Below, piece after piece: positions 1 through 59,284 of a stretch of DNA of 64,000 nucleotides; the first letter of the stretch is position 1; the number at the start of each line of letters is the position of its first letter. This DNA is from Staphylococcus muscae (GTDB lineage Bacteria; Bacillota; Bacilli; Staphylococcales; Staphylococcaceae). The position numbers and the translations under genes are program-made. The notes below the pieces were generated by a model that saw only the letters and a program-made list of their open reading frames with translations, searched no databases and was not told the DNA's origin. The stretch lies in NCBI RefSeq assembly GCF_003019275.1, contig NZ_CP027848.1, positions 992,001-1,056,000 on the forward strand, in the 5' to 3' direction.

Positions 1-645
1 GACAGAGCGAATAATAAGACGATGTTCAAATTGCTCTAATGCGATAAAGCCAACTTTTTCTCCATTTAGCATTAAATCAACAACATCGAATGTGCTCGAA
101 ATAGATGCTTCTTGATACTGAAGTTTAAGAGATGAGACATACTTTGCGTCCAAATCTAAATAGTAAAGACGCTCCTTTCCAATCGGTCCTTCCTCTTTCG
201 TTGCAGCGTGCATAAAACCAGCACGTTCATACAAGTTCCATGCAGCAGCATTTTCAGCATCAACAACTAAATATAAATGGTTAAATCGTGGAAATACTTC
301 TTGAACATATTGTGGTAAGATCATCATCATTTTAGTGCCATATCCATGACCTTGATAACGTTCATTAATCGATAGTGAACGAACATACACGACCTCTTCC
401 GGTGTATCATATCCTTCATGTTGATAATGCTTATGCAACACGAAAAAACCAATCACTTCATCTTGTGTATTCAACACAACATTCGCAACACGATTTTCAT
501 CTTCCAGTGCTTCATCAAGGACTTCTATGGGTAAAGATGAGTAGATACGTTGTCTTTCACTCAACTCAAAGTTGTTCAAGGCATCACGGTATTGCTTGTC
601 ATAAGATTGTATAGTAATATCATCAAAGCGCTTACTTTTTGTCAT
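1..645 (-). CDS. GNAT N-acetyltransferase, 3' end cut by window edge
   Basis: The reading frame starts at ATG 645 behind a good ribosome binding site (AGGGTGGAG) and stays open to base 1, giving at least 215 residues. It begins MTKSKRFDDI. Near residues 90-110 it has the acetyl-CoA loop of the GNAT fold (SINERYQGHGYG, pattern Q/R-x-x-G-x-G), followed by a typical strand and the AENAAAWNLYERAGF motif. These are hallmarks of Gcn5-related acetyltransferases that move acetyl from acetyl-CoA to an amine. The substrate cannot be read from sequence. About 75 further residues follow the GNAT core, so the protein is longer than a minimal one. It is divergent from the transporter gene downstream of position 850. 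Confidence 0.8.
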   Translation of the reverse strand, partial: MTKSKRFDDITIQSYDKQYRDALNNFELSERQRIYSSLPIEVLDEALEDENRVANVVLNTQDEVIGFFVLHKHYQHEGYDTPEEVVYVRSLSINERYQGHGYGTKMMMILPQYVQEVFPRFNHLYLVVDAENAAAWNLYERAGFMHAATKEEGPIGKERLYYLDLDAKYVSSLKLQYQEASISSTFDVVDLMLNGEKVGFIALEQFEHRLIIRSV

Positions 646-4330: not shown

Positions 4331-4620
4331 ATACGAGGTTGTGAAAGGAGCGTTTAGGAATTGAGCAGAACCCGAGCAATGTGTAAAATCGCTTTTTGAT
4401 TTTATGAAATTGCGAAGTTCTGTCGATAGTCCTGCTCCTTGAACACTGACAATACGAGGTTGTGAAAGGAGCGTTTAGGAATTGAGCAGAACCCGAGCAA
4501 TGTGTAAAATCGCTTTTTGATTTTATGAAATTGCGAAGTTCTGTCGATAGTCCTGCTCCTTGAACACTGACAATACGAGGTTGTGAAAGGAGCGTTTAGG
4601 AATTGAGTCCTGCTTCTTCA
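4331..4620. repeat. Tandem 121-bp structured repeat, two full copies plus a shortened third
   Basis: Two identical 121-bp units start at 4331 and 4452, and a third begins at 4573. Each starts ATACGAGGTTGTGAAAGGAG. Each unit can fold into one long interrupted hairpin: AAGGAGC with GCTCCTT (outer), CAGAAC with GTTCTG, CAAT with ATTG, and TAAAATC with GATTTTA around a short loop. The third copy is broken after GAATTGAG and joins TCCTGCTTCTT, which is both the repeat's right stem and the 3' end of the ATP-grasp gene. Related single units occur at 9745 and 59139. The repeats fill the gap between the DUF2750-like gene and the ATP-grasp gene. Confidence 0.9.
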
Positions 4621-5792
4621 ATGAATTGCTGTTCATATGCTTCAATCTCCGCTTCGCTATCCGCATGCCAAATACAACCAAATCGTGAATCAACATGTTT
4701 TTCTGTATACCAATCTCCATCGTAATATGACAATGGGAAAAGAACGCCTTTCTCAACAAATGTTTTAATAGCATCGTAGAAACGTTCATTGTTCCCTTTC
4801 GCCACATAACTATAAAACTTGTGATAGTCTCCTTCTAAGTTGTCAGCAAGTAATAACATACTTGTAGATCCGTTTTGTCGATAGTTTAAGTCAATCGCAT
4901 AGACATGACCTTCTGCATCTTCTAACAGGTCGAATCCTGCTACACCAATAAAACCTTCTTCAACTGCTCTTTCCATCAATGCCCGACCTGCATCTATGAC
5001 CGTCTGAGGGACGTGTTGGGCATTGACGTTACCTTGATAAAAGCCATATTCATTAGTTAATTGCTTTGCTGCTCCAAGATAAAGAATACCTTTATCTGGA
5101 TGTTTCGCAAACTGCACACAATAGTTATCCACGACATCAATACACTGTTCAATAATTAATGTATCCGTCGCTGCTTCCGCTTTCTTCACACGGGCAATTG
5201 CTTGCTCTAGTTCTTTTTGTGTATAACAAATCATCACACCATAGCCACCTGCTGTTGGCAAGTCATCGCCCGGTTTGATAACGACAGGTAATTCCCAACG
5301 GCGTACAGCTTGTTCAAATTCGTTAAACGGCACCACTTCTCGCTTCGGCAAATACTTGCCATCTGTCCAGTCCGGTATTTTGGATTTATTGTTCAAATCA
5401 ATAAATGTTTGCTTATTCATTGCATACTTGTCAGCAGAGACAATGTCATCACCATGCACATATTGGAAATAAATTTTTCGGTCTTCTTCTAATGTCAAAC
5501 GTTGTAATAGTGACTCATATGAAGATTGATCTTTAAAATAATATAAATTATCAGGAATACGACGATGAATTAACGCAAATAGTTGTGCTAACTTATCTGT
5601 CACACTTGCTTCATGTACAATTACGGGCATATCTGCTATCAGTAATTCTCTCGCAGATAAAAAGTTAGATTGATGTTCATCTGGTTCTAACCAAGGATTC
5701 GACACATATGAAGGTCGAGATGAATATACGACATCATTTGAATACAACTCAGCCATTGTTAAATAAGACTGAGTATTTTTTACATCGGTCAT
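4596..5792 (-). CDS. ATP-grasp ligase-like protein
   Basis: A 398-residue cytosolic protein with an ATP-grasp core. PVVIKPGDDLPTAGGYGVMI (about residues 174-193) carries the ATP-binding lysine and glycine loop. LIIEQCID is the linker strand, and GVAGFDLLEDAEGHVYAIDLN followed by YRQNGST holds the metal-binding acidic and Asn residues. Such proteins join a carboxylate to an amine through an acylphosphate, for example amino-acid or dipeptide ligases; the substrates are unknown. It overlaps the M20 gene upstream by 4 bp (ATGA), so the two are translationally coupled and both lie behind the SAM riboswitch. The last codons and the stop (residues GLNS) coincide with the adjoining repeat, so the C-terminus may have been remodelled. 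Confidence 0.82.
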   Translation of the reverse strand: MTDVKNTQSYLTMAELYSNDVVYSSRPSYVSNPWLEPDEHQSNFLSARELLIADMPVIVHEASVTDKLAQLFALIHRRIPDNLYYFKDQSSYESLLQRLTLEEDRKIYFQYVHGDDIVSADKYAMNKQTFIDLNNKSKIPDWTDGKYLPKREVVPFNEFEQAVRRWELPVVIKPGDDLPTAGGYGVMICYTQKELEQAIARVKKAEAATDTLIIEQCIDVVDNYCVQFAKHPDKGILYLGAAKQLTNEYGFYQGNVNAQHVPQTVIDAGRALMERAVEEGFIGVAGFDLLEDAEGHVYAIDLNYRQNGSTSMLLLADNLEGDYHKFYSYVAKGNNERFYDAIKTFVEKGVLFPLSYYDGDWYTEKHVDSRFGCIWHADSEAEIEAYEQQFIEEAGLNS

Positions 5793-9744: not shown

Positions 9745-9875
9745 AACGAGGTTGTGTGAGAAGCGTTTAGGAGTTGAGCAGAATCCGAGCAATGAATAAA
9801 ATTTATAGAATTGCGAAATTCTGTCGAAAGTCCTGCTTCTTGAACACTGACAATACGAGGTTGTGAGAGAAGCAC
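9745..9875. repeat. Single copy of the structured intergenic repeat
   Basis: One 109-bp unit flanked by two copies of ACGAGGTTGTGWGAGAAGC-type sequence (9746 and 9855). It has the same architecture as the 4.3-kb array but a shorter apical stem. The outer stem is AGAAGC with GCTTCT and the next is CAGAAT with ATTCTG. Both pairs differ from the 4.3-kb copy on both sides, so pairing is kept. It lies between the divergent pdp and deoD genes and accounts for about a third of that 408-bp gap. Confidence 0.85.
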
Positions 9876-43794: not shown

Positions 43795-44757
43795 TTACAT
43801 CTTTCTTAAAACAAACAAGAAATAAGGTGCTCCAATAATTGCAATTAATACACCGACTGGAATATCAATTGGGGGCGCAATAATACGAGCAGCTGCATCA
43901 CCCACTACCATTAGCACACCACCGATTAAGCCAGACATCATAACAATATGAAAATGTTTATGCCCTACAATACTGCGCGCAATATGAGGTGCAATTAAAC
44001 CTAAAAAGCTCAACCCACCTACTACTGAGATTGCCGACCCTGCTAACATTACAGCTGCCAGTAATAGCATCATTTTAACTCGTTTAACCTCTGTGCCGAG
44101 CGCAGTGGCTACTTCATCACCTAAATGTAAAATATCGAGTTTGTGACTGTAATATAAAATAATCGGGATGCCCACACATAACCATGGCAAGATGGTCATG
44201 ACGTGATGCATAGAACGACCAAACAAACTACCTGTTAGCCATACAAGTGCAATGTTAGCTTCCATCGGATGACGGATTAGCAAATATTGTACAACCGCCA
44301 TAGCGATGGCACCGATTGCCATCCCTATCAAAGCGAGTTGTGAGCCTTTCACGTTTTTATAGCTGATGAGAAGTGATAAGATGATACTGATCACGAGTGC
44401 CCCTGCAAATGATGCAACTGGCAAAATGAAGAGCGGTGCCGTTGGAAACACAATAATTACAATAACTGCTGCTAAACTTGCTCCTTTCGTAATACCAATC
44501 ACATCAGGGGATGCCAATGGATTGCGAACAATTCCCTGAATGACAGCTCCAGAAATCGATAATGCTGCCCCCACTAATACTGCTAATAACATACGTGGTA
44601 CGCGATATTCTGCAAGGATAAAGTTACTGTTCGTCCATACTTCTTGAAGTACTTGCGTAGGAGCAATCCACACAGCACCTGCACTTAAACCTAAACATGC
44701 AAAAACAATCAGTAGCAGGATCACAATGATATAACGTTGTTTTAAATGTACTCTCAT
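43795..44757 (-). CDS. htsC: Staphyloferrin A ABC transporter permease HtsC
   Basis: A 320-residue FecCD-family permease with about ten helices. Typical segments are RVPRMLLAVLVGAALSISGA, VIQGIVRNPLASPDVIGITK and the C-terminal GLIAPHIARSIVG with the cytosolic loop that contacts the ATPase. The start overlaps the htsB stop by 4 bp (ATGA); the site is GAGAGGGG. Together with HtsB it imports Fe-staphyloferrin A captured by HtsA; the ATPase FhuC is encoded elsewhere in known staphylococci, and none is seen here. Confidence 0.93.
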   Translation of the reverse strand: MRVHLKQRYIIVILLLIVFACLGLSAGAVWIAPTQVLQEVWTNSNFILAEYRVPRMLLAVLVGAALSISGAVIQGIVRNPLASPDVIGITKGASLAAVIVIIVFPTAPLFILPVASFAGALVISIILSLLISYKNVKGSQLALIGMAIGAIAMAVVQYLLIRHPMEANIALVWLTGSLFGRSMHHVMTILPWLCVGIPIILYYSHKLDILHLGDEVATALGTEVKRVKMMLLLAAVMLAGSAISVVGGLSFLGLIAPHIARSIVGHKHFHIVMMSGLIGGVLMVVGDAAARIIAPPIDIPVGVLIAIIGAPYFLFVLRKM

Positions 44758-45779
44758 CGTGTACGCACCCCTCTCAAAGTAATCCATAAGAAGTAAAAGG
44801 CACCGACAAAGGAAGTGACAATACCGACAGGCGATTCGAATGGGAAAGCAATCAGTCGACTTAACACATCTGATAAGAGCAACAAGTTAGCCCCCATAAT
44901 CATGGATAACAAAATAATTAAAAAGTAATTACGGTTAAGATAGTATTTCACAATATGTGGAATAATCAAGCCGATAAATCCGATTGGCCCTGCAATGGCA
45001 ACACAAGACCCCGCCAAAATAACAACTAAAAATCCTGCTATCGCTCTAATAACTTGTGTATTTTGTCCGAGTCCTGTTGCAATTTGATCACCCAAATCGA
45101 GTACAGCAAGTTGTTTCCCTAATAACAGTGCGCCAATCAATCCTGCAATCAAAAATGGTGTCACCTTCGCAATATGTACCCATTTAATCGTATGCAATGC
45201 ACCGACGAGCCAGAACATCACTGTCGTTGTCGCATCTTCATGTAACAAAATAATTCCTTGCGTCAAGCTTGTAAAGAACAAATGAATTGTCATACCAGCA
45301 AGTGCCAACTTAATCGGTGTCATACCTTTTGTTGTATCTGCCAACAAGTAAACTGTCAAACCACCGATAAACGCACCGACAAATGCAAATACCACGTTGT
45401 AGGCTGCAAACGATGGAATAAGTACGGTAATTAACACAACAGCAAATGAAGCACCGGCGTTAACACCAAATATCTGTGGTGATGCCAATGGGTTACGCGT
45501 GATAGCTTGCATCAATACCCCGGCAACACCTAACGCAGCACCAATCATCACGGCAGCAACCATTCTAGGCATGCGTACGTTATGTATAATAAATGTTGAT
45601 TTCGTTTCTTTAACAGAGAAAAAATAATCTACGAGCGACTGAAAGTTAATTTTGGACGATCCGACTGCAAGATTTAAATAGATTGCAAAAACAAGAAAGC
45701 ACACGCTCACAATAAATGCGAGCGTGGTGCGTCTCTTTTGGTGATGTCCATCATATGATTTCATTGTTTGTTTTAACAT
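44754..45779 (-). CDS. htsB: Staphyloferrin A ABC transporter permease HtsB
   Basis: A 341-residue FecCD-family permease, paralogous to HtsC, with about ten helices and segments RMPRMVAAVMIGAALGVAGV, ITRNPLASPQIFGVNAGASF and GFIGLIIPHIVKYYL. ATG 45779 follows AAAGGTGATTGGCT; two upstream codons are discarded. It is 34 bp after htsA and translationally coupled to htsC. Expression is expected under iron limitation through the Fur box before htsA. Confidence 0.93.
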   Translation of the reverse strand: MLKQTMKSYDGHHQKRRTTLAFIVSVCFLVFAIYLNLAVGSSKINFQSLVDYFFSVKETKSTFIIHNVRMPRMVAAVMIGAALGVAGVLMQAITRNPLASPQIFGVNAGASFAVVLITVLIPSFAAYNVVFAFVGAFIGGLTVYLLADTTKGMTPIKLALAGMTIHLFFTSLTQGIILLHEDATTTVMFWLVGALHTIKWVHIAKVTPFLIAGLIGALLLGKQLAVLDLGDQIATGLGQNTQVIRAIAGFLVVILAGSCVAIAGPIGFIGLIIPHIVKYYLNRNYFLIILLSMIMGANLLLLSDVLSRLIAFPFESPVGIVTSFVGAFYFLWITLRGVRTR

Positions 45780-45813
45780 AGCCAATCACCTTTATTTAAG
45801 TCATTCAAGTTGC

Positions 45814-46794
45814 TTATTTTTCTGATTTAGAGATTTCTGCAAGTTCTTTGGCAATTTCTTCAGAAGAGATTAAACCACGGAACTTCGCCCATGTTAAACG
45901 ATCCACAACATGTACACGATCGTTTTTCACAGCGTCTAATTCATTCCAAACTTTGTCTTCTTTCATTTTAACGTAAAATGGGTCATCTTCGCCATTCACC
46001 ATAATAAACATACGTTCAGGGTTTACATCTGATAATTGTTCTGAGTTCATGTTTAAGTATGGTGCGTTTAAATACTCAGGTAACTGATCTGCAACATCTT
46101 TTGTCAATGCTTCTTTAAAACCAAGTTCATGTAAGAATTGTCCAACGTAAGATTTGTCAGAGTGTGCGAGTAAGCCTGATTGAGAAATAACAGCTGGTAA
46201 GACTTTTTTGTCTTTATCCATTGTAATTTCTTTTTGGTACTTTTCAATCTTGTCTTTATGTTCATCAAGGCGTTTATCCGCTTCATCTGATTTTGATAAT
46301 GCTTTACCGATTGTTTTGAATGCTTCTAAGTTTTGTTTATAATCTGAGTCTAAACTTGGTAACAAAATTGTTGGTGCAATCTTGCTCAACTGTTCATAAT
46401 TCCCTTTATGACGGTTGCTATCTGCAATAATTAAGTCTGGTTTCAATTGACTGATAACTTCTAAATTCGGCTGTTTACGATCACCAACCGACTTATAATC
46501 GCCAACTTTATCACGAATTGGATCAATGATATTTTCTTTATCTCCATCATCTGCGATACCGACTGGTTTCACACCTAATGCAACCAAAGCATCAACGAAT
46601 GAATATTCAAGTGCCACAACTTTTTTAGGTTCTTTCTCTATTTTTGTAGTACCACCGTCATGTTTCACTTCAACGGCTTGCCCTTTTGAACTAGACGAAC
46701 TTTCTTTTTTCGAGTCATTCGCATTCCCACACGCTGCTACAAGCAGCATGACAGCGATCATTGCGATTAGACCCATCCATTTATTTTTGTTCAC
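45814..46794 (-). CDS. htsA: Staphyloferrin A receptor lipoprotein HtsA
   Basis: A 326-residue siderophore-binding lipoprotein of the periplasmic-binding (FhuD/BtuF) fold. The signal peptide ends in lipobox LLVAAC with Cys22. A hydrophilic tether (NANDSKKESSSSSKGQ) is followed by VVALEYSFVDALVALGVKP, two lobes joined by a long helix, and conserved Arg and His residues that hold ferric staphyloferrin A in the S. aureus protein. Translation begins at GTG 46794 after AAAGGAGCGC. A perfect Fur palindrome lies 52 bp upstream. Confidence 0.93.
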   Translation of the reverse strand: MNKNKWMGLIAMIAVMLLVAACGNANDSKKESSSSSKGQAVEVKHDGGTTKIEKEPKKVVALEYSFVDALVALGVKPVGIADDGDKENIIDPIRDKVGDYKSVGDRKQPNLEVISQLKPDLIIADSNRHKGNYEQLSKIAPTILLPSLDSDYKQNLEAFKTIGKALSKSDEADKRLDEHKDKIEKYQKEITMDKDKKVLPAVISQSGLLAHSDKSYVGQFLHELGFKEALTKDVADQLPEYLNAPYLNMNSEQLSDVNPERMFIMVNGEDDPFYVKMKEDKVWNELDAVKNDRVHVVDRLTWAKFRGLISSEEIAKELAEISKSEK

Positions 46795-46844
46795 AATTTA
46801 GCGCTCCTTTTGTATATAAAATGTAAGCCTTAACAATAATATAA

Positions 46845-46861
46845 TTGATAATGATTATCAC
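46845..46861. promoter_or_regulatory. Fur box upstream of htsABC
   Basis: TGATAATGATTATCA is a perfect palindrome and matches the core of the staphylococcal Fur box. It sits between htsA and sfaC, just behind the sfaC stop. Confidence 0.92.
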
Positions 46862-46863
46862 TG

Positions 46864-47937
46864 TCAATGGTGTACACTAAATTTTTCTTTTTTCTTATCA
46901 ACAAATCCTTGAATAAGCAGTTCAATCCCTTCATCTTCAATATAGTTACGTTCTAACTGTTGATTATGCATACTTTGTGCAATGGCTGAATATCCAAGTT
47001 CAAATGAAATGCTATCGCCTATTTGATAATAATCTGCCAGTCCGAGATTAATCAACAAGACATCACTCGTATAACCAACGATTGATAATTGATCATCCAT
47101 TGGTATCATGTCACCAACATCTGTATCCAACTCCCCGATATCCACAACTGCTTGCAAGTATGATTGACGTGTTCTCATATCTAGACGTGGTTTGATTTCA
47201 AGAATTCTTCCAGTCATCGTCACTGCTTGATCATAAAGTTGTGGCAAGCGCATATTATAAGCTGTCTCAACACCTCTAAATATTGCTTCTCCAATGCGCA
47301 GTTCATTAATACGTCCCATATCTTGATACATCGCTAACATGAGCATGCTTGAATTTCCACCTGAAATTGTATGCAAATGAACGCCTGTATCTCGTTCTAC
47401 CGCTTCAATGAACTGATTCATATAAGGTAAATCCTCTTCTGTTGGTGGCATTTGTCTGTAACACATAAAGTTAAAGGCAAGACCTTTAAAATCAATACCT
47501 TTCATCTTCTTAATTTGTTTAATATACGAAACTACCTCGTAAGTCAATACACCTTCTCGTCCGTCTTTCCAGTCCACCATAAGTAGCAATTGATGTGTTG
47601 TTCCTTGCTCAATTGCTGCTTCGTTCAACGCATGGATTGTTTCTAACTCAGTTTGTAAGCTGATGCGTGTTAATTGCACAGTGCGTGCCGCTTGTTCGGA
47701 GAGTGTCCCTTTAATCAGCATATAATCTTTACGTTGTGTTTGGACTTCAGAAATATGATTTAACCGTGATGCTGCGAGTAAATCAAATCCTAAATCTCTT
47801 AAAGCATGCTCAACTTGTGCATCGCCTGCCATACATTTTGCGACAGGTATCATACGAATACGGCGCTGATACAACATCTGTTGTAATAGCAACGCATTAT
47901 ACTTAATTTTGCTCAAATGTATATGAATCTCACCCAT
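46864..47937 (-). CDS. sfaC: Staphyloferrin A PLP-dependent racemase SfaC
   Basis: A 357-residue alanine-racemase-fold enzyme thought to supply D-ornithine for staphyloferrin A. The PLP lysine is in IPVAKCMAG (Lys34); DWKDGREGVL, ISGGNSSMLM and INELRIGEAIFRG line the barrel. ATG 47937 after GAGGGTGTTGTAAT is chosen rather than the upstream ATG at 47958, which lacks a site. The stop of sfaB is one base upstream of the start, so sfaA, sfaB and sfaC form one operon. Its end abuts the Fur box of htsA. Confidence 0.92.
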   Translation of the reverse strand: MGEIHIHLSKIKYNALLLQQMLYQRRIRMIPVAKCMAGDAQVEHALRDLGFDLLAASRLNHISEVQTQRKDYMLIKGTLSEQAARTVQLTRISLQTELETIHALNEAAIEQGTTHQLLLMVDWKDGREGVLTYEVVSYIKQIKKMKGIDFKGLAFNFMCYRQMPPTEEDLPYMNQFIEAVERDTGVHLHTISGGNSSMLMLAMYQDMGRINELRIGEAIFRGVETAYNMRLPQLYDQAVTMTGRILEIKPRLDMRTRQSYLQAVVDIGELDTDVGDMIPMDDQLSIVGYTSDVLLINLGLADYYQIGDSISFELGYSAIAQSMHNQQLERNYIEDEGIELLIQGFVDKKKEKFSVHH

Positions 47938-47938
47938 A

Positions 47939-49708
47939 TTACAACACCCTCTTTTCATACAGTGGATTTTCTAGCGCAATAGTTGTATATTTTTTTACTT
48001 GTTGTTTCATGCGCATATTTAAGAGTGCCTTAACAACTACTTCTTCACCAAACAATATACGCTTCAATGCCATAGCATGCTGTTGCGTATCATCAATTGC
48101 TTCATATAAAACATCACGAATAATTTCGTACAATGCTTGCTCATCACATTGGTGCTTATGTTTTAAATGGTGAATGAGTGTCCCAAGTTGATTTTGGATA
48201 ACAGCATGTTGAAACTTCGCAATCACGGTATCAATATTTTCGGCAATGAGACTTGTATTAGTTACTTCTACATCCGGAATCGCACGCTGTAACGTCGATA
48301 AATCTAAGCGTGCACCACCCAAATCTCTAACGATAAAAGATAATGTTTGGTTATTTTTATTAACTTCTAAAATCGTATTTTGTTGGTGTGCTTCTAAAGC
48401 AATTCCGTATTGCTGAATGTACGCAATTAACGGCGTCATCAATGCATGACTATATGTACGGATGAAGCTTGAAATCGTCGTTTCATTTATTTTTCCATAT
48501 AAGTATTCAATCAAACTGTCCACTACAACCTGATTATCAACAGGATTGCGTTCAATTAAACATGCTGTCACCATTTGTATGATCTCTCTCTGAGTATCTT
48601 CTGGCGATTCACGTACAATCATCGCACATTGCCGTGCAATATCAGCTGGCGCATCAATATGCATACCATATGGCTCCATCGCTACTTGTAACGTGGGATA
48701 TTGCGTCAACATCGCTTGCAGTTGATGACTGAGTCGTGGACCATCCACTGTTGTCACTGTCGATACTGTACGTACCGCACTTGTCGCTTGAACATTGACC
48801 GGTAATTTAATGTGGAATGGACGTCCTAACAAGTACATCGTCCTGAACGATAACGTTGGTTTTGCATCAACTGTTAAAGGTGTTGGGACCAGTTGGTGCG
48901 TACGGATATGCTCGCTGAATTGTGCCACAATCACATGCTCATATTGCCAAGGATGGACGAATAATACCCGATAATCTTCGAGTGACACATCATACGGTGC
49001 AATATATTGTTGCAATTGGCGCTTCATATCTGGAATAACAGTATTCAATACAAAGTTGGCATCATCATTCATTGCCGTTTCTTGTACCATATTTTTATGT
49101 AGTAATACAATCTTTAATGGTACTATCCGCATAAACTCTGGCGCATAGGATTGAATATCACCGGACGTTAATGGTAGCTTGGTTTTCGTTAATGGATGTG
49201 ATGGATGGCCATGCCAGATCATCCCTTCTGTGTAACCGAGTGCAGTGAAGCCACTGTCTTCATTCATATGTGCCAACCAAGCAATAAAGTTCAATTCACT
49301 CGGCATGCGTGAAAATTTTAATGCATGACGCATCGCTGTTTCTCGATGTTCATATTGGCGAAGGCTCAGTGATAATCCAAGCACACTATGTTCCAATTCG
49401 TCTATCAGTCTCTCATGAAAATCCATACCAAAATCCGTTTTTAATATTTCAATAAGATCACGTAAACACGCCACTTCTTTCGTTTGTTCTCCTATCGAAT
49501 AACTAATCGGCCCCTCCATCGTTATTTGAAAGAATGAACTTTTCGTTATGTAGTTCACACGTAATAGGCGCCCTTGATATTGAATCCTTACTTCGCCTTT
49601 CATCGTCTCAATATATGTAGTCGGTGGGAATAGCGATTCTTTCATACACGCTATTAACACTCGATATTGAATCAGTTGATCTGCTTTATGTTGATGCATC
49701 ATTGTCAT
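47939..49708 (-). CDS. sfaB: Staphyloferrin A synthetase SfaB (IucA/IucC family)
   Basis: A 589-residue NRPS-independent siderophore synthetase. The family pattern is seen in GHPSHPLTKTKLPLT (about residues 168-182, ATP-phosphate contact), VHPWQYEHVI, KLPVNVQATSAVRTV and EAHQQNTILEVN with RDLGGARL near the C-terminus. It activates a carboxyl of citrate as an adenylate and forms an amide; in S. aureus SfaB adds the second citrate. It overlaps sfaA by 4 bp and starts at ATG 49708 after GGAGG. Confidence 0.95.
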   Translation of the reverse strand: MTMMHQHKADQLIQYRVLIACMKESLFPPTTYIETMKGEVRIQYQGRLLRVNYITKSSFFQITMEGPISYSIGEQTKEVACLRDLIEILKTDFGMDFHERLIDELEHSVLGLSLSLRQYEHRETAMRHALKFSRMPSELNFIAWLAHMNEDSGFTALGYTEGMIWHGHPSHPLTKTKLPLTSGDIQSYAPEFMRIVPLKIVLLHKNMVQETAMNDDANFVLNTVIPDMKRQLQQYIAPYDVSLEDYRVLFVHPWQYEHVIVAQFSEHIRTHQLVPTPLTVDAKPTLSFRTMYLLGRPFHIKLPVNVQATSAVRTVSTVTTVDGPRLSHQLQAMLTQYPTLQVAMEPYGMHIDAPADIARQCAMIVRESPEDTQREIIQMVTACLIERNPVDNQVVVDSLIEYLYGKINETTISSFIRTYSHALMTPLIAYIQQYGIALEAHQQNTILEVNKNNQTLSFIVRDLGGARLDLSTLQRAIPDVEVTNTSLIAENIDTVIAKFQHAVIQNQLGTLIHHLKHKHQCDEQALYEIIRDVLYEAIDDTQQHAMALKRILFGEEVVVKALLNMRMKQQVKKYTTIALENPLYEKRVL

Positions 49709-50877
49709 TGACTTGTGCCTCCATTCGTCTTAATCATCACAATATAACTACTCATCGCTATTAATAAAGTCGCCATCCCCATGGTCATAAATGTCATCGC
49801 AATGTCTACATATTCCGATAACATACTCATTAGTAATGCACCGAGAGGAATCATCCCACGATCCATCATTACAACACTCAATATTTTACCACGATGCGCT
49901 GGATCGACATCATTTTGAAAATAAATACGATTTGTTGTGCGTGCAATCTGTCCAAATAAACCGACAAAAAAGATCATCAGTAACAATCTAACGATGCCAA
50001 ACGGATAAATGCACATTAAACTCAACCCAAACAATATTGAGCTGATATAATATAAGCGTTGTGAAGGGATATATTGCAGCATCTTCGGTATGATGAGTGT
50101 CGCTATAATTCCTCCGGCTGCACTGACTGCCATCGCAACACCAAATAGTTTCGCATTATTAGGATAATGTGTATCTGTTAATATCGGTAACAATGTCGCA
50201 TAACAATACCCTGTTGCCATAATAAAAAGTGCTGTCATAAAAATATGACGCCCTTGTGTATGTATTTTAAAATATTGCCATGCAACAGCGAATGCTCCGC
50301 TTTTTTTACAATTCGGTTGTTCTGTTAGTTCAAAACGAAGCGGCATACTTACAATCAGCGATAATACATAACAAACAGCTTGTACGATAAATGCACTTTG
50401 AATACCTGACGATGCGATAAGGAATCCTGATATAGCTGGACCGATAGAACGACATGTGTTCAAAATAAACGATTGATAAGAGACAGCTTTCGAGATAGAA
50501 AGATTGTCTGATAAATCCGGTAAGACTGCCTGTCTGACTGGCGTTTCAATCGCACTCATACAACCGCGTAAAAAAGCATAAAGATACAGATAATAAACAG
50601 GTATATCTCCCATTATGATAATCGCACACGTTAATGTTGCTGTAATCACGAGTGAGCAACTTATGCTTAACTTGATAAGTGTACAACGTCTAAAACGATC
50701 GGCAATCGCACCTGCCCACATACTCAATAAAAATATGGGTACTAATCGAAAGAAATTAATCCATGCAAGATCAAATGCACGATGATTTAATTGATAGGCA
50801 TACCAGTTTAACGCAATTTGTCCAATCCAATTACCAAGAAAGAGTAAAAAGGCACCGGAATAGAACCATTTTGCCAC
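49705..50877 (-). CDS. sfaA: MFS staphyloferrin A exporter SfaA
   Basis: A 390-residue MFS protein with 12 helices. It has ADRFRRCTL in the loop after helix 2 and ETPVRQAVLPDLSD between helices 4 and 5, a layout shared with siderophore exporters such as EntS. In S. aureus SfaA secretes staphyloferrin A. The start is GTG 50877, eight bases after GGGGAG. It opens the sfaABC operon and faces sfaD across a 111-bp region with a Fur box. Confidence 0.92.
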   Translation of the reverse strand: MAKWFYSGAFLLFLGNWIGQIALNWYAYQLNHRAFDLAWINFFRLVPIFLLSMWAGAIADRFRRCTLIKLSISCSLVITATLTCAIIIMGDIPVYYLYLYAFLRGCMSAIETPVRQAVLPDLSDNLSISKAVSYQSFILNTCRSIGPAISGFLIASSGIQSAFIVQAVCYVLSLIVSMPLRFELTEQPNCKKSGAFAVAWQYFKIHTQGRHIFMTALFIMATGYCYATLLPILTDTHYPNNAKLFGVAMAVSAAGGIIATLIIPKMLQYIPSQRLYYISSILFGLSLMCIYPFGIVRLLLMIFFVGLFGQIARTTNRIYFQNDVDPAHRGKILSVVMMDRGMIPLGALLMSMLSEYVDIAMTFMTMGMATLLIAMSSYIVMIKTNGGTSQ

Positions 50878-50895
50878 GTTATCCACTCCCCTTTA

Positions 50896-50916
50896 ATTGA
50901 TAATCGTTCTCATTTC
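50896..50916. promoter_or_regulatory. Fur box between sfaA and sfaD
   Basis: TTGATAATCGTTCTCATTT matches the 19-bp Fur pattern NTGATAATNATTATCANT with two mismatches in the right half. Its place between divergent starts suits control of both sfaABC and sfaD. Confidence 0.85.
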
Positions 50917-50988
50917 CGGTATTATGGATTATACGAATTATAATATTGTTTGTAAATAAAAAAGATATAATATAAATGAGGTGCTCAA

Positions 50989-52947
50989 ATGAATGCTGAA
51001 CAGAAACAAATAGAAACACCCACGACCATCATGACAAATGATGAACGTGCAACATATGAGACACTCTGCAAGAAAGACCTAAAATGGGCAGAGTCTTTTC
51101 AACAAGCTTTGTCGGTAGGTCGTGACCTTGTTACTGCAAGACTCATCACATCAATTTATCGAGAAAATCTTGTAGATGGATACATACACAGCAAGATGGT
51201 TAATCATACTTCCCTGTCTGAATCACCCCTTCAACACGAAACTGTTCTTGAAATTCAGTTCTCTCAATCTCAGATGGTTTTATGTGCACCAATTACAGGT
51301 CTTCATGCATTTAACCGAATTGATGTCGAAGGTCCTTTTTATTGGCGTCAAACTAATTATTATGAACGCATCGCACATCCCAATCATGTACTCGATGCAA
51401 TCATTGCTGAGAATGTACAATACACAGGACCAGCAGCTGAACAATTTCGCGACGATCTAAGCAATAGCGCTTGTTATATGGCGCTGGCAATAAGTTATCA
51501 GCAATTGAAATATCGTCATACAACAGATACGCTATTAACAGCGATTGAACAACAATCAGACCCTTACCTTGCGTCTGAACAAGCTGTTGTAGAAGGTCAC
51601 CCCATTCATCCAGGTGCGAAGTTGCGTAAAGGAATGACAGCAGAAGAAACGATTGCCTATTCTTCAGAGTATGAACAACCAATGGGATTGCGTTTCATAT
51701 TAGTGCATCAAAACTATGTAAAAGTACAAAATTTAAATAAATCATTTGATGCAATATTATATGATGCGTTTGATGGTTTAGAAGCAGCATGCCAACAATC
51801 CTTTAACACGACGAAGCTTAATCGTTCGGATTATCACCTCATGATTGTACATCCTTGGCAATATGATCACATATTGTCTGCTGATTATGCTGACGAGTTG
51901 GCAAAACAAATCATCATACCCGTAGATGTAACATTTGATTATTATGCTGGTTTATCTTTTCGTACGTTGATGCCAAAACATCCTAAAATATCACCGCACA
52001 TCAAACTCTCGACCAACGTTCATATTACAGGAGAAATACGTACGCTATCAGAACAAACAACACACAACGGTCCGCTAATGACTCAAATATTGCATGACAT
52101 TACCACACAAGATACATGGTTTTCTCATGTCCCAACAAGTGCTGTCGATGAATTGTCAGGGGTACACTTTTTCAATCAAAATGACGCACCTGACATACAG
52201 GAACGCCGAAGTGAACAACTCGGTACACTGTTGCGCCATAACATCTATCATGATCTTGATGACACTGTTTTACCATTACTTCCTTCCAGTTTGATTGTAA
52301 GTACACCACATCAAGCATCATCGTTAATCATCGAACTGGTGGAACGTTACCATGAGCATCATCCAGAACTTAGTGAACACACTGCTGTTCAACAATGGTT
52401 CTCTCGATATGCCGCTTCATTAATTGATTATGTCATGCCACTTTTAATTAAATATGGCATTGCACTCGAAGCACATTTACAAAATACGATTGCTGTTTTT
52501 AACAAAGAAGATGGCTTACTCAATCATATGTATATTCGTGACTTTGAAGGATTGCGCATTGATACACAACAACTTCATAAAATGGGTTATGATACATCAA
52601 ACTTTCATGAAAAATCTCGTATTTTGACAAACAGTCAGAAATCAGTCTTTAATAAAGCTTTTTATGCGACAGTTCAAAACCATCTGGGCGAACTTGTTGC
52701 TGCATTGAGCGATCATTATACAATTGAATCTCTTGAAACAGACTTATGGCATATAGTCCGTGATCAAATACAATCATTATTTACAACCTTCCGCGATCAT
52801 AAATTTGATACACAAAGACTTGAAAACATTGAAAAGATATTCTTTAATTCAGTCATTGACTATAAATGCGTTACAACAATGCGCCTTTTAGATGAAGCAC
52901 ACGCCTATACTTATGTAAAAGTAGAGAATCCATTAGCAGATAAATAG
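50989..52947 (+). CDS. sfaD: Staphyloferrin A synthetase SfaD (IucA/IucC family)
   Basis: A 652-residue synthetase, paralogous to SfaB, with EGHPIHPGAKLRKGMT (about residues 203-218), MIVHPWQYDHIL, KLSTNVHITGEIRTL, EAHLQNTIAVFN and IRDFEGLRI. In S. aureus SfaD couples the first citrate to D-ornithine before SfaB finishes the molecule. ATG follows GAGGTGCTCAA. It is the sole gene of its transcript and ends at a terminator. The divergent Fur-controlled region links its expression to sfaABC. Confidence 0.95.
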   Translation: MNAEQKQIETPTTIMTNDERATYETLCKKDLKWAESFQQALSVGRDLVTARLITSIYRENLVDGYIHSKMVNHTSLSESPLQHETVLEIQFSQSQMVLCAPITGLHAFNRIDVEGPFYWRQTNYYERIAHPNHVLDAIIAENVQYTGPAAEQFRDDLSNSACYMALAISYQQLKYRHTTDTLLTAIEQQSDPYLASEQAVVEGHPIHPGAKLRKGMTAEETIAYSSEYEQPMGLRFILVHQNYVKVQNLNKSFDAILYDAFDGLEAACQQSFNTTKLNRSDYHLMIVHPWQYDHILSADYADELAKQIIIPVDVTFDYYAGLSFRTLMPKHPKISPHIKLSTNVHITGEIRTLSEQTTHNGPLMTQILHDITTQDTWFSHVPTSAVDELSGVHFFNQNDAPDIQERRSEQLGTLLRHNIYHDLDDTVLPLLPSSLIVSTPHQASSLIIELVERYHEHHPELSEHTAVQQWFSRYAASLIDYVMPLLIKYGIALEAHLQNTIAVFNKEDGLLNHMYIRDFEGLRIDTQQLHKMGYDTSNFHEKSRILTNSQKSVFNKAFYATVQNHLGELVAALSDHYTIESLETDLWHIVRDQIQSLFTTFRDHKFDTQRLENIEKIFFNSVIDYKCVTTMRLLDEAHAYTYVKVENPLADK

Positions 52948-52966
52948 TATATAGATAAACGAAATA

Positions 52967-52998
52967 GAGCTGAGACATATGTTCAGCTCCTTCTTTTA
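52967..52998 (+). terminator. Terminator after sfaD
   Basis: GAGCTGA pairs with TCAGCTC around GACATATGT-like loop sequence, followed by CTTCTTTTAT. Confidence 0.75.
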
Positions 52999-53134
52999 TG
53001 TTGTAGAAATAAGTATAGTGGCACTGGATGTCTCAGTTTTTAAAATTACTATTTCTTGCTAAACACTGTTGTTACAACTTGAAATAGTTTACAATAGTGC
53101 GCAGAGACTATTTTTCAAAGGAGTTCTGATAACA

Positions 53135-54292
53135 ATGACAGTGATGCGCACATTCACTTTTATGTTAAGTATTTTTATTGTGGGCATGGTCGAAATGGTC
53201 GTTGCAGGTATTATGAGTTTGATGAGTGCTGACCTACATATTTCAGAAGCTTGGATTGGACAACTTGTAACAGTATATGCTTTTACATTTGCTTTGACAG
53301 GTCCAATCTTAGTTAAATTGACAGAACGCTATGCACCAAAACCTGTTTTATTAGTAACTATCGCAGTTTTTATTATAGGCAATATGATGATTGCATTGTC
53401 ACCTAACTTTATCGTATTAGTCATTGGACGTATCTTATCATCAGCTGCCGCAGCTTTAATCGTAGTAAAAATATTAGCCATTACCTCTTTTCTCTCAGAA
53501 CCACACAAAAGAGGTCGCATGCTCGGTATTGTCTATACGGGTTTCAGTGCTTCTAATGTATTCGGAGTGCCTATCGGGACATTGATCGGTGATTGGTTAG
53601 GTTGGCGATTCACATTCGGTTTAATTAGTTTTGTAGGATTACTCGTTACGATCCTTCTTACGATTTACTTGCCACGTGAGCTTCACATGAATATTCATAC
53701 ACATAATAGCACAAGTAATAACCAACCGAATGTACATAGTAAGAAAGAAATCATCAAACTATTGGCAGTCACTTTTATTTTACTCACTGCAAATTCCATC
53801 GCATATATCTATATTAATCCACTAATTCTATCGGGTGGCCATACATTACAATATGTATCTCTCGCATTGTTAGTCATTGGTGTTGCAGGTATGCTTGGTA
53901 CATCAATGGGTGGCTACTTTACCGATAAACTTTCATTTAAGACATGGTTGATATTCAGTAGCTTAGCATTTGCCGTTATCTTAACTTTACTCAATCAGCT
54001 ATGGGCAACATCAATTCTACTACTCATCACCTTATTCGCTTGGCATATTATTGAATGGAGTACGAACCCAGCTGTACAATCTGGGCTCATCAGTCAAGTT
54101 CACGGTGACCATAGCCAAGTGATGAGTTGGAATATGTCCGCATTAAATGCTGGTATAGGATTAGGCGCATTACTCGGCGGTGTGATTGTTTCACATTTAA
54201 GCCTTCACGCAACTGTCTATATTGCAGCTGCAACAAGTCTGTTGGCTTTCTTCATCGTAATTACTTTACAAAAACCACAGACATCACATTAA
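53135..54292 (+). CDS. DHA1-family MFS transporter
   Basis: A 385-residue 12-helix transporter resembling AraJ/NepI-type exporters, with ILVKLTERYAPKPVLL after helix 2 and GFSASNVFGVPIGTLIGD in helix 5. A hydrophilic, Asn/His-rich central loop (NIHTHNSTSNNQPNVHSKKE) separates the halves. Start ATG 53135 after AAAGGAG is preferred to TTG 53069. It is not present between sfaD and asp23 in S. aureus, so with arsRBC it is part of a species-specific insertion. Substrate unknown. Confidence 0.87.
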   Translation: MTVMRTFTFMLSIFIVGMVEMVVAGIMSLMSADLHISEAWIGQLVTVYAFTFALTGPILVKLTERYAPKPVLLVTIAVFIIGNMMIALSPNFIVLVIGRILSSAAAALIVVKILAITSFLSEPHKRGRMLGIVYTGFSASNVFGVPIGTLIGDWLGWRFTFGLISFVGLLVTILLTIYLPRELHMNIHTHNSTSNNQPNVHSKKEIIKLLAVTFILLTANSIAYIYINPLILSGGHTLQYVSLALLVIGVAGMLGTSMGGYFTDKLSFKTWLIFSSLAFAVILTLLNQLWATSILLLITLFAWHIIEWSTNPAVQSGLISQVHGDHSQVMSWNMSALNAGIGLGALLGGVIVSHLSLHATVYIAAATSLLAFFIVITLQKPQTSH

Positions 54293-54294
54293 TC

Positions 54295-54340
54295 AAAAAA
54301 CGCTACGGCTCATCCTTTAGACGAGTTCGTAGCGTTTTTT
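54295..54340. terminator. Bidirectional terminator between the MFS gene and arsC
   Basis: AAAAAACGCTACG pairs with CGTAGCGTTTTTT. Confidence 0.9.
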
Positions 54341-54736
54341 CTATCTATTTTTAAAGTTTTCAATAGCAGTTTTAATTTCATCTCTTACACGTTGAAATTC
54401 CGACCATGGCTGACCTGCTGGATCATCAAAACCCCAATGTTCTTTCTTTACATGTGGTGGCATCACTGGACAATTTTTATCCGCATCACTACACAATGTA
54501 ACAACCAAATCTGCCTTATTTAATATTGTTGGATTGATCAAATCAGAAGTATGTGTACGAATATCAATACCCACTTCATCCATCGCTTCTATCGCTTTAG
54601 GATTCACGCCATGCGTTTCAATTCCACCTGAATACACATCCCATGAATCACCGAGTATTTTCTTGCCCCATCCTTCTGCCATCTGGCTTCGACAAGCATT
54701 TCCTGTACAAATAAAATAAATCACTTTTTTATCCAT
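54341..54736 (-). CDS. arsC: Thioredoxin-coupled arsenate reductase
   Basis: A 131-residue low-molecular-weight-phosphatase-type ArsC that reduces arsenate to arsenite. The P-loop is CTGNACRS with nucleophile Cys10, and the redox pair Cys82 and Cys89 is in [11 protein letters not shown], as in the pI258 enzyme. Start follows AGAGAGAATGAT. Third gene of arsRBC; it lies 15 bp after arsB. Confidence 0.96.
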
Positions 54737-54751
54737 ATCATTCTCTCTTTC

Positions 54752-56041
54752 TTAAAAAATAATCAATGTGAGATACAAGCCTAATAGTGTGACAAATAGT
54801 ACAGGAATCGTAATCACAATACCTGTTTTGAAGTACGTCCCCCATGAAATCTTCACACCTTTTTGCGTCAAGACATGTAACCACAATAATGTAGCGAGTG
54901 ATCCAATCGGCGTGATTTTAGGTCCTAAGTCAGAGCCAATTACATTCGCATAAATCATCCCCTCTTGTAATATACCCGTCACATTTGACTGATTGATAGC
55001 AATCGCATCAATCAGAACAGTTGGCATATTATTCATAACAGATGATAGAAATGCTGCAATAAAACCCATTCCCATAACACTACTAAATAACCCATATTGA
55101 GAAATATTGGCGAGCACATCTGCGAGCAACGTTGTAATCCCTGCATTTTTTAATCCAAAGACAACGAGATACATTCCGATTGAAAAGGCAACAATATTCC
55201 ACGGTGCATCTTTGATGACTTGTGCAGTATGTACCGCAGGCGATTTTCTTGCTAATAAAACGAAGATAAATGCGATACTTCCTGCAATAAGTGACACAGG
55301 AATCTTCAACCATTCACTCACAAGATAACCGATTAATAAAATGCCTAATACGATCCATGATATTTTAAATAATCGCTCATCCTTAATGACCGTTTGCGGT
55401 GCAACTAAATGTATCGCATCAAACGACTTCGGAATCGCCTTTCTAAAGTACAACCATAACACAACAATACTCGCTATCAATGAAAACATATTAGGAATGA
55501 TCATACGCCCAAAATATTCTAGAAACCCTATGCTAAAATAGTCGGCTGATACGATATTCACTAGGTTACTAACAACTAATGGCAATGAAGTTGTATCCGC
55601 AATAAAACCACTTGCTATAATGAATGGAAATACAACTTTTTCATTAAAACCTAAGTTTCTAACCATTGCCAACACAATCGGTGTCAATATTAATGCTGCC
55701 CCATCATTTGCAAAAAAGGCTGCCACGATTGCACCTAACAGCATAATATAGACAAACATCTTCAAACCATTTCCATTTGAAGCACGAGCCATATGTATCG
55801 CTGACCATTCAAAAAAACCAATCTCATCTAGAATCAATGAAATAAGAATGACCGCCACAAAAGTCAGCGTTGCATTCCATACAATTCCAGTTACTTCCCA
55901 TACATCACCGAGACTCACCACACCTGTGATAATTGCGATAAGCGCACCAATCAGCGCTGTAATACCAATATCTAATCCTTTAGGTTGCCAAATTACAAAA
56001 AGTAATGTGACTAAAAAAATGATAATTGCTAAGAGCATCAT
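54752..56041 (-). CDS. arsB: Arsenite efflux membrane protein ArsB
   Basis: A 429-residue arsenical pump with about 12 helices, very close to the pI258 and pSX267 staphylococcal ArsB ([40 protein letters not shown], the length of 429). It exports arsenite or antimonite, alone or with an ArsA ATPase; no arsA is present, so it would run on membrane potential. ATG 56041 directly abuts the arsR stop (overlapping TGATG); it gives the same length as known proteins. Two codons (GTG, TTG) upstream in frame are not preferred. Confidence 0.95.
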
Positions 56042-56355
56042 CAACACGTTCCACCTTTCATTGTTTTACAAATACATTGTTCGCTTCCCCTATGTACTTG
56101 ATTCAAGTTCATACTAATTGCTTCGAGTTGTTCTGCATTCAATTTGTACATTCTCTTATTCCCATCTTTTCGCACTGTCACCATCTCACTCTCAACAAGT
56201 GCCTTCATATGATGACTTAACGTTGGCTGAGAAAAATCAAAATGTGCGAGTATATCGCAAGCACATAGTTCACCACACGATAACAAATCAATAATTTCCA
56301 AACGATTGGCATCTGCCAATACTTTCAACTGTACGGCTAATACTTGATATGACAT
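56041..56355 (-). CDS. arsR: Arsenic-responsive repressor ArsR
   Basis: A 104-residue SmtB/ArsR-type winged-helix repressor. The metalloid site is in [12 protein letters not shown] (Cys residues at the start of helix 3), followed by the recognition helix [15 protein letters not shown]. The C-terminus is Cys-rich ([13 protein letters not shown]). Arsenite binding releases it from the operator. A strongly symmetric operator lies immediately upstream. First gene of the arsRBC operon. Confidence 0.96.
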
Positions 56356-56374
56356 AGAATACCTCCTTCACCTA

Positions 56375-56410
56375 ACATAGATTATCATCTATATAGATAA
56401 TTGTCTATGT
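56375..56410. promoter_or_regulatory. ArsR operator
   Basis: A 36-bp symmetric site: ACATAGA and TCTATGT at the ends, with TCTATATAGA in the centre, separated by six bases each side. It lies 20 bp before arsR. Confidence 0.85.
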
Positions 56411-59138: not shown

Positions 59139-59284
59139 CAAACGCTCCTTTCACAACCTCGTGATGTCAGTGTTCCAAAAGCAGAATTCTCGACAGAATA
59201 TCACAATTCGACAAAATCAAAAAGCGATTTTTCTCATTGCTCTGATTCTGTTCGCATTCTAAACGCTTTTTTCACAACCTCGTT
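59139..59284. repeat. Third copy of the structured intergenic repeat, inverted
   Basis: On the minus strand one 121-bp unit lies between two ACGAGGTTGTGAAA-type direct repeats. Its outer stem is AAAAGC with GCTTTT, then CAGAAT with ATTCTG, CAAT with ATTG, and AAAATC with GATTTT. It is between hchA and the sae promoter and about 28 bp from the SaeR box. Confidence 0.85.

Follow-up and report, generated by a model that had tools for sequence, protein, structure and literature searches.

An intergenic hairpin repeat of staphylococci, probably an IS1182-type mobile palindrome that replaces older stem-loops

A short hairpin repeat found in Staphylococcus genomes is probably a non-autonomous, palindromic mobile hairpin of the IS1182 type, copies of which were swapped in for older DNA, in clear cases a terminator-type stem-loop. 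An IS1182-family (IS1272-like) transposase would read the hairpin by its structure, in the donor as well as in the target, and exchange one stem-loop for another, while the need to fold, perhaps together with use as a terminator, would hold the stems paired as their letters drift. This reading ties staphylococcal intergenic hairpin repeats, so far unexplained, to a little-studied mode of transposition known from IS1272, the replacement of stem-loops. It gives a reason for hairpins sitting at terminator positions, and it lets stem covariation be accounted for without assuming an RNA function; swapping in for older hairpins would help account for a fold that is kept despite changing letters. A wider proposal is put forward more tentatively, namely that a gene-less class of hairpins may move by structure-for-structure exchange, the transposase reading shape and not sequence, and hence that terminators would be replaced harmlessly, the element's own older copies would be replaced or extended, and the stems would evolve freely under the pairing constraint alone.

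Loci in the window and distribution of the element

The window, that is the whole stretch of 64,000 nucleotides that was analysed (G000:C1:992001-1056000, from the 2.1-Mb genome of Staphylococcus muscae), contains three arrays of a hairpin unit of 109–121 bp, each ending in a truncated copy. At 4.3 kb, two identical tandem units of 121 bp on the plus strand (4333–4453 and 4454–4574, arms AAGGAGC/GCTCCTT) are closed by a 3'-truncated third copy (4575–4607); the original prediction had found the element here and given it as 4331–4572, the true span being 4333–4607. The 9.7-kb array, also on the plus strand, is made of a full unit that has lost its apical loop (9746–9854, arms GAGAAGC/GCTTCTT) and a closing 3'-truncated copy (9855–9873). 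The 59.1-kb array lies on the minus strand, with the full unit at 59163–59283 (arms AAAAGC/GCTTTT) and the 3'-truncated copy that closes it at 59140–59162. The common frame and the stems previously quoted for these three loci are present and correct. Folded as RNA, the 4.3-kb, 9.7-kb and 59.1-kb units have z-scores of -5.0, -3.1 and -1.5, respectively, the last being unremarkable when taken alone.

The 9.7-kb unit lies between divergent genes of the pyrimidine-nucleoside-phosphorylase type and of the phosphorylase superfamily, the latter probably of the purine-nucleoside type, and the 59.1-kb unit between divergent DJ-1/PfpI and DM13 genes. Within the truncated copy that closes the 4.3-kb array, 4596–4607 supplies the last codons and the stop (4596–4598) of a 398-amino-acid open-reading frame on the minus strand (4596–5792), for which no Pfam family was found. 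For the region 43800–56400, the list of open-reading frames suggests genes of the iron-uptake/siderophore type and, after them, a cluster of the arsenic type.

The element had been predicted to be dispersed, and it is. BLAST gives 32 matches in the window's genome, partial ones counted, and matches in 30 of the 84 genomes of the genus. A covariance model built from 44 copies (cut-off E <= 1e-4), a check of the kind originally suggested, gives 30 matches in the window's genome and finds the element, in a patchy distribution, in 38 of the 84 Staphylococcus genomes; at the scale of the family it matches 47 of 108 genomes in three of five genera. Model counts per genome range from 0 to at least 44, the high counts being lower bounds. 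When a degenerate pattern of 22 bases was run against one genome per species (84,980 species, with the window's own record possibly not included), 35 stretches matched, all of them titled Staphylococcus. A plasmid- or phage-borne element was rejected, within the limits of blastn sensitivity, as one window copy used as a query gave no match in plasmid and phage collections.

Covariation of the stems and probable exchange of units

The stems were compared in an alignment of copies from many species, in which 45 of 71 remained after thinning to below ~95% similarity and 44 were used, one of L084 being left out. RNAalifold folds the alignment into one long hairpin of six helices and 34 pairs, 27 of which show changes on both sides. 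Pairing is found in 94.9% of the paired cells, as opposed to 82.6% in shuffles, and falls to 38–51% when the partner is slid by 1–3 columns. Cells with two-sided changes number 204 against 50.8 ± 8.2 in shuffles, and the covariation score is 0.445 against 0.198 ± 0.008, figures that are tempered, like the G-U counts below, by a control for relatedness among copies that is only partial. A six-pair stretch of helix 2 occurs as eight different fully Watson-Crick arm pairs, in 34 of the 44 copies. The covariation is real and beyond chance, and what had been claimed from three copies, that changes occur on both sides so that pairing is kept, persists in this larger sample.

G-U cells on the plus strand of the 44 copies number 145 against 15 A-C cells (38 against 15 without four G-U-rich pairs), and columns 18 against 5 (p 0.011). 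Since G-U is so much commoner than A-C, the fold of one strand seems favoured, which would suit a structured RNA useful to the host, such as a terminator or a 3'-UTR or leader element kept for its folded transcript. The placement of the element relative to genes was examined at 142 loci, kept after duplicates, loci near the end of a stretch and loci lacking a neighbouring open-reading frame of at least 80 amino acids on either side had been dropped. On the 5' side, 47 of 80 genes reading into the element have their stop codon within 30 nt of it (open-reading frames called mechanically), again as a structured RNA would have it, while facing genes on the 3' side stop within 30 nt of the core in 4 of 78 cases and within 80 nt in 26 of 78. 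The stop-codon bias at the 5' end, strong at first sight, weakens once the 3' tail is counted: in copies whose tail can be recognised, the 5' and 3' ends differ weakly, 15/30 vs 7/30 (p 0.06). Replacement of terminators would account for the placement no less well than a dedicated 3'-UTR signal. A structured RNA is also hard to reconcile with the even split of co-directional loci, 42 sense and 40 antisense, with the two window loci out of three that lie between divergent genes, and with the 46 of 84 genomes that have no match at E <= 1e-4. Such an RNA appears a decidedly improbable explanation overall.

Many loci in the window's clade consist of a run of full units and, after it, a truncated copy whose breakpoint is specific to the locus. 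Orthologous loci in sister genomes have their flanks and often the truncated copy in common, and the number or type of full units can differ; at L079, for example, there is only a short fragment, and its relative L064 has the fragment together with a full unit. At each of the three window loci, the unit found at the corresponding place in the sister genome G074 is a rather different one. The best unit identity between the two genomes, gaps left out, is 84% at 4.3 kb, 85% at 9.7 kb and 81% at 59.1 kb, while the flanks of these loci are 87–96% identical to G074 and their units 91–96% identical to a paralogue in the same genome. A regular target-site duplication was rejected, the short matches between left flank and unit junction at some loci of this clade being inconsistent.

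Of thirteen orthologous pairs, one has no full unit on one side, and 12 comparisons remain, L007 taking part in two of them. In six of the 12, a group that includes all three window loci, both units are nearer to a paralogue in their own genome (89–98%) than to each other (77–88%, gaps left out), and the same six emerge when gaps are counted. In the other six the orthologous units are 92–98% identical and the unit has not been exchanged. Since orthologous window loci carry different units, exchange of whole units, and not compensatory change in place, is probably at least part of the reason why the stems of the window copies differ. Quasi-palindrome repair could be another source of arm matching. 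The original prediction had read the three copies of one genome as direct evidence of selection on the fold; with units probably exchanged at all three loci and a repair process that could also match the arms, they do not amount to such proof.

Recombination could be given a larger part. Hairpin breakage or replication template-switching, with homologous recombination and gene conversion swapping the palindromes, would spread the element with no transposase, and part of the covariation would then be quasi-palindrome correction. The unit differences at old copies are as expected from recombination between repeats, and chimeric units with mismatched arms are present at L142 and L157. However, the asymmetric internal loops, which correction of the arms would tend to erase, are conserved across the 44-copy alignment. 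Spread of this kind is rather unlikely, and the insertions described below also speak against it.

Replacement of older segments in the S. aureus complex

The insertion mode is best seen in G066. This genome is 85–88% identical at one locus to G058, which is S. schweitzeri by the exact flank match of L050 to L070; from this and from 85–92% mutual identity at that locus, G066, G058, G004 and G006 appear to belong to the S. aureus complex. The covariance model finds 27, 11, 1 and 0 copies in these four closely related genomes, respectively. The element takes the form, in G066, of a repeat of ~159 bp with sharp boundaries, GAGGTCGGGACA...TGTCTCAACCTC, with terminal inverted repeats GAGGTYGGGACA.../...TGTCTCAACCTC, and the ends of the repeat matches cluster at -5..0 and 158..161.

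Fifteen of the 27 G066 copies were compared with the sister genome G004, which yielded 12 readable empty sites; L119 and L131 contain long unalignable stretches and L126 has no match in G004. All 12 empty sites hold 17–39 bp that are missing from the filled site, with boundaries uncertain by up to ~10 bp in L120, L122 and L123. The target is thus replaced without target duplication at every readable site, which is the behaviour expected of an IS1182/IS1272-derived element, and the mobile palindromic element that had been offered as one of two alternatives in the original prediction gains its support from these sites. The older segment recurs in G006 at three loci, L128, L129 and L132, the last of which has it in G058 as well, and is therefore ancestral at these three. 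The G004 empty sites hold no copy of the element where the G066 insertions lie, and the ends of the insertions are uniform, neither of which agrees with spread by recombination between copies.

Three of the replaced segments are clear terminator-type hairpins, TAGAACCCC...GGGGTTCTA at L121, CGGTAAGTTCT...AGAACTTACCG at L125, where it is flanked by A- and T-tracts, and AACAGCTATGAC...GTCGTGGCTGTT at L128. In these clear cases the outer A- and T-tracts of the replaced hairpin stay behind. Eleven of the 12 replaced segments, L132 being left out, were scored as inverted repeats against local control windows. L121, L125 and L128 each score above all 407 control windows, L130 and L127 reach 0.02 and 0.06, and the combined p is 8e-5, while the remaining six (0.19–0.94) are indistinguishable from the control windows. 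The 11 segments tested are three unmistakable hairpins, two more that are likely hairpins and six that are unremarkable. At L133 the best inverted repeat covers exactly the replaced 23 bp, with an ordinary score.

The left flank of the G066 copies is A-rich (4.6 of 8 vs 2.8) and the right flank T-rich (3.9 of 8 vs 2.7), both significant by resampling over the 15 loci. Such A- and T-tracts beside the copies would also suit the structured RNA considered above. Among 20 further loci from S. schweitzeri and other species, four (L042, L050, L068 and L093) gave comparisons, with no clean empty site, and the divergence at L163 in G074 was too great for the site to be read.

Possible kinship with IS1182-family elements and named repeats

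IS1272, of the IS1182 family, is reported to replace target inverted repeats of 21–85 bp without target duplication (Wan et al. 2017, PMC5678879). The same paper describes some of the targets as “non-IRs” and gives IS1272L a tandem duplication at its left end; the words MITE, miniature and terminator are absent from its main text. The element shares with IS1272 the GRGGCTGGGACAT-like ends, the replacement of hairpins and the lack of target duplication, but IS1272 is 1,945 bp long and carries a transposase gene, while the element is gene-less and has a long covarying internal hairpin.

Three staphylococcal proteins were scanned and fit the NCBIfam model of the IS1182 transposase; one, at 548 amino acids, is as long as the major IS1272 protein. 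The inverted ends that flank staphylococcal IS1182-family genes are mostly of the GRGGCTGGGACAT type, a motif search having located both ends at 6 of 11 loci. The ~159-bp form has terminal inverted repeats like those of its putative parent: its two ends match the 15-base IS consensus GAGGCTGGGACATAA at 12 and 13 positions, for which the naive chance is ~1e-5 and ~1e-6 in a fixed register, with the match judged after the fact and the consensus taken mostly from one IS end. The left end of the window's clade matches at only 10 of the 15 positions.

The presence of a transposase does not follow that of the element. A protein search finds an IS1182-type transposase in 26 of 38 element-bearing and 32 of 46 element-free genomes, and PF13751 is found in 21 of 38 and 27 of 46, with no association in either case. 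G006 lacks the element and has IS1182-type genes that are open, and G066, with its 27 copies, has only transposase fragments among the matches listed. Since the transposase does not track the element, we can only infer mobilisation by an IS1182-family enzyme, from the ends and the insertion mode. A search for such a transposase in the window's genome and in G073 found none; the copies in the window's genome are probably relics, which recombination would now be reshuffling. Nearly identical open IS1182-family transposase genes occur in G074 (10 matches; L236), a sister species of the window's genome.

Neither the IS1182 nor the Y1 type of transposase correlates with the element across the 84 genomes, which is what spread with no transposase would predict. 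The Y1 (HUH) transposases were considered as movers of a REP/REPIN-like element, with which the repeat agrees in being a hairpin without regular target duplication. Their genes are found in 14 of 38 element-bearing and 18 of 46 element-free genomes, and were not found in G073, G074, G054, G011 and G044. Deletion of a target hairpin is, to our knowledge, not a feature of Y1 insertion. Mobilisation of the Y1/REP kind is thus disfavoured, to the point of being hardly credible.

BOX, RUP, SPRITE, ERIC, bcr1 and REP/BIME are small dispersed hairpins, some of them modular or mosaic, like the element; we know of no hairpin-for-hairpin replacement among them. Searches of the open-licence PMC literature found no paper that linked repeats of this kind with IS1182/IS1272 or with the replacement of stem-loops.

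STAR, like the element, is an intergenic staphylococcal repeat, and is described as a 14-bp GC-rich direct repeat T(G/A/T)TGTTG(G/T)GGCCC(C/A) (PMC3532100). It was ruled out, as had been expected: at up to two mismatches the window contains two matches to the consensus, neither of them inside the arrays. No Rfam family reaches its gathering threshold on the window copies. The further statement, that the element was not recognised as another named repeat, is made uncertain by Sta-1, a likely named counterpart. As far as the available part of a 2008 survey describes it, Sta-1 is an S. aureus family of 105 bp with 25 intergenic copies and a single stem-loop (PMC2267715). G066 has 27 matches to a core of ~115 bp, and size, copy number, location and fold fit this description, on which basis Sta-1 may be the same repeat; mobility and insertion mode are absent from the survey's account in that part. 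Rfam S35 was rejected on L034, where it scores 43 bits against a threshold of 69 and its alignment takes in the flanks and leaves an unmatched insert inside the element.

Related structures occur elsewhere. In G022 (L099–L118) the hairpin core lies within a longer composite, mosaic-like repeat, with an upstream module ...ctaggggctgaggg and, in most copies, a downstream module GGGAGCAGTACAGAAATC...GATTTCGTCGTACTGCCCCC. A further palindromic repeat, with ends of the GGGAGTGGGACAGAAAT type, occurs at L204 and L206 and may represent a separate hairpin family whose ends are related. The hairpin at L064 (6418–6590) holds an insert with a STAR-like TTGGGGCCCC stretch, and the matches at L087 and L092 are longer than usual too.
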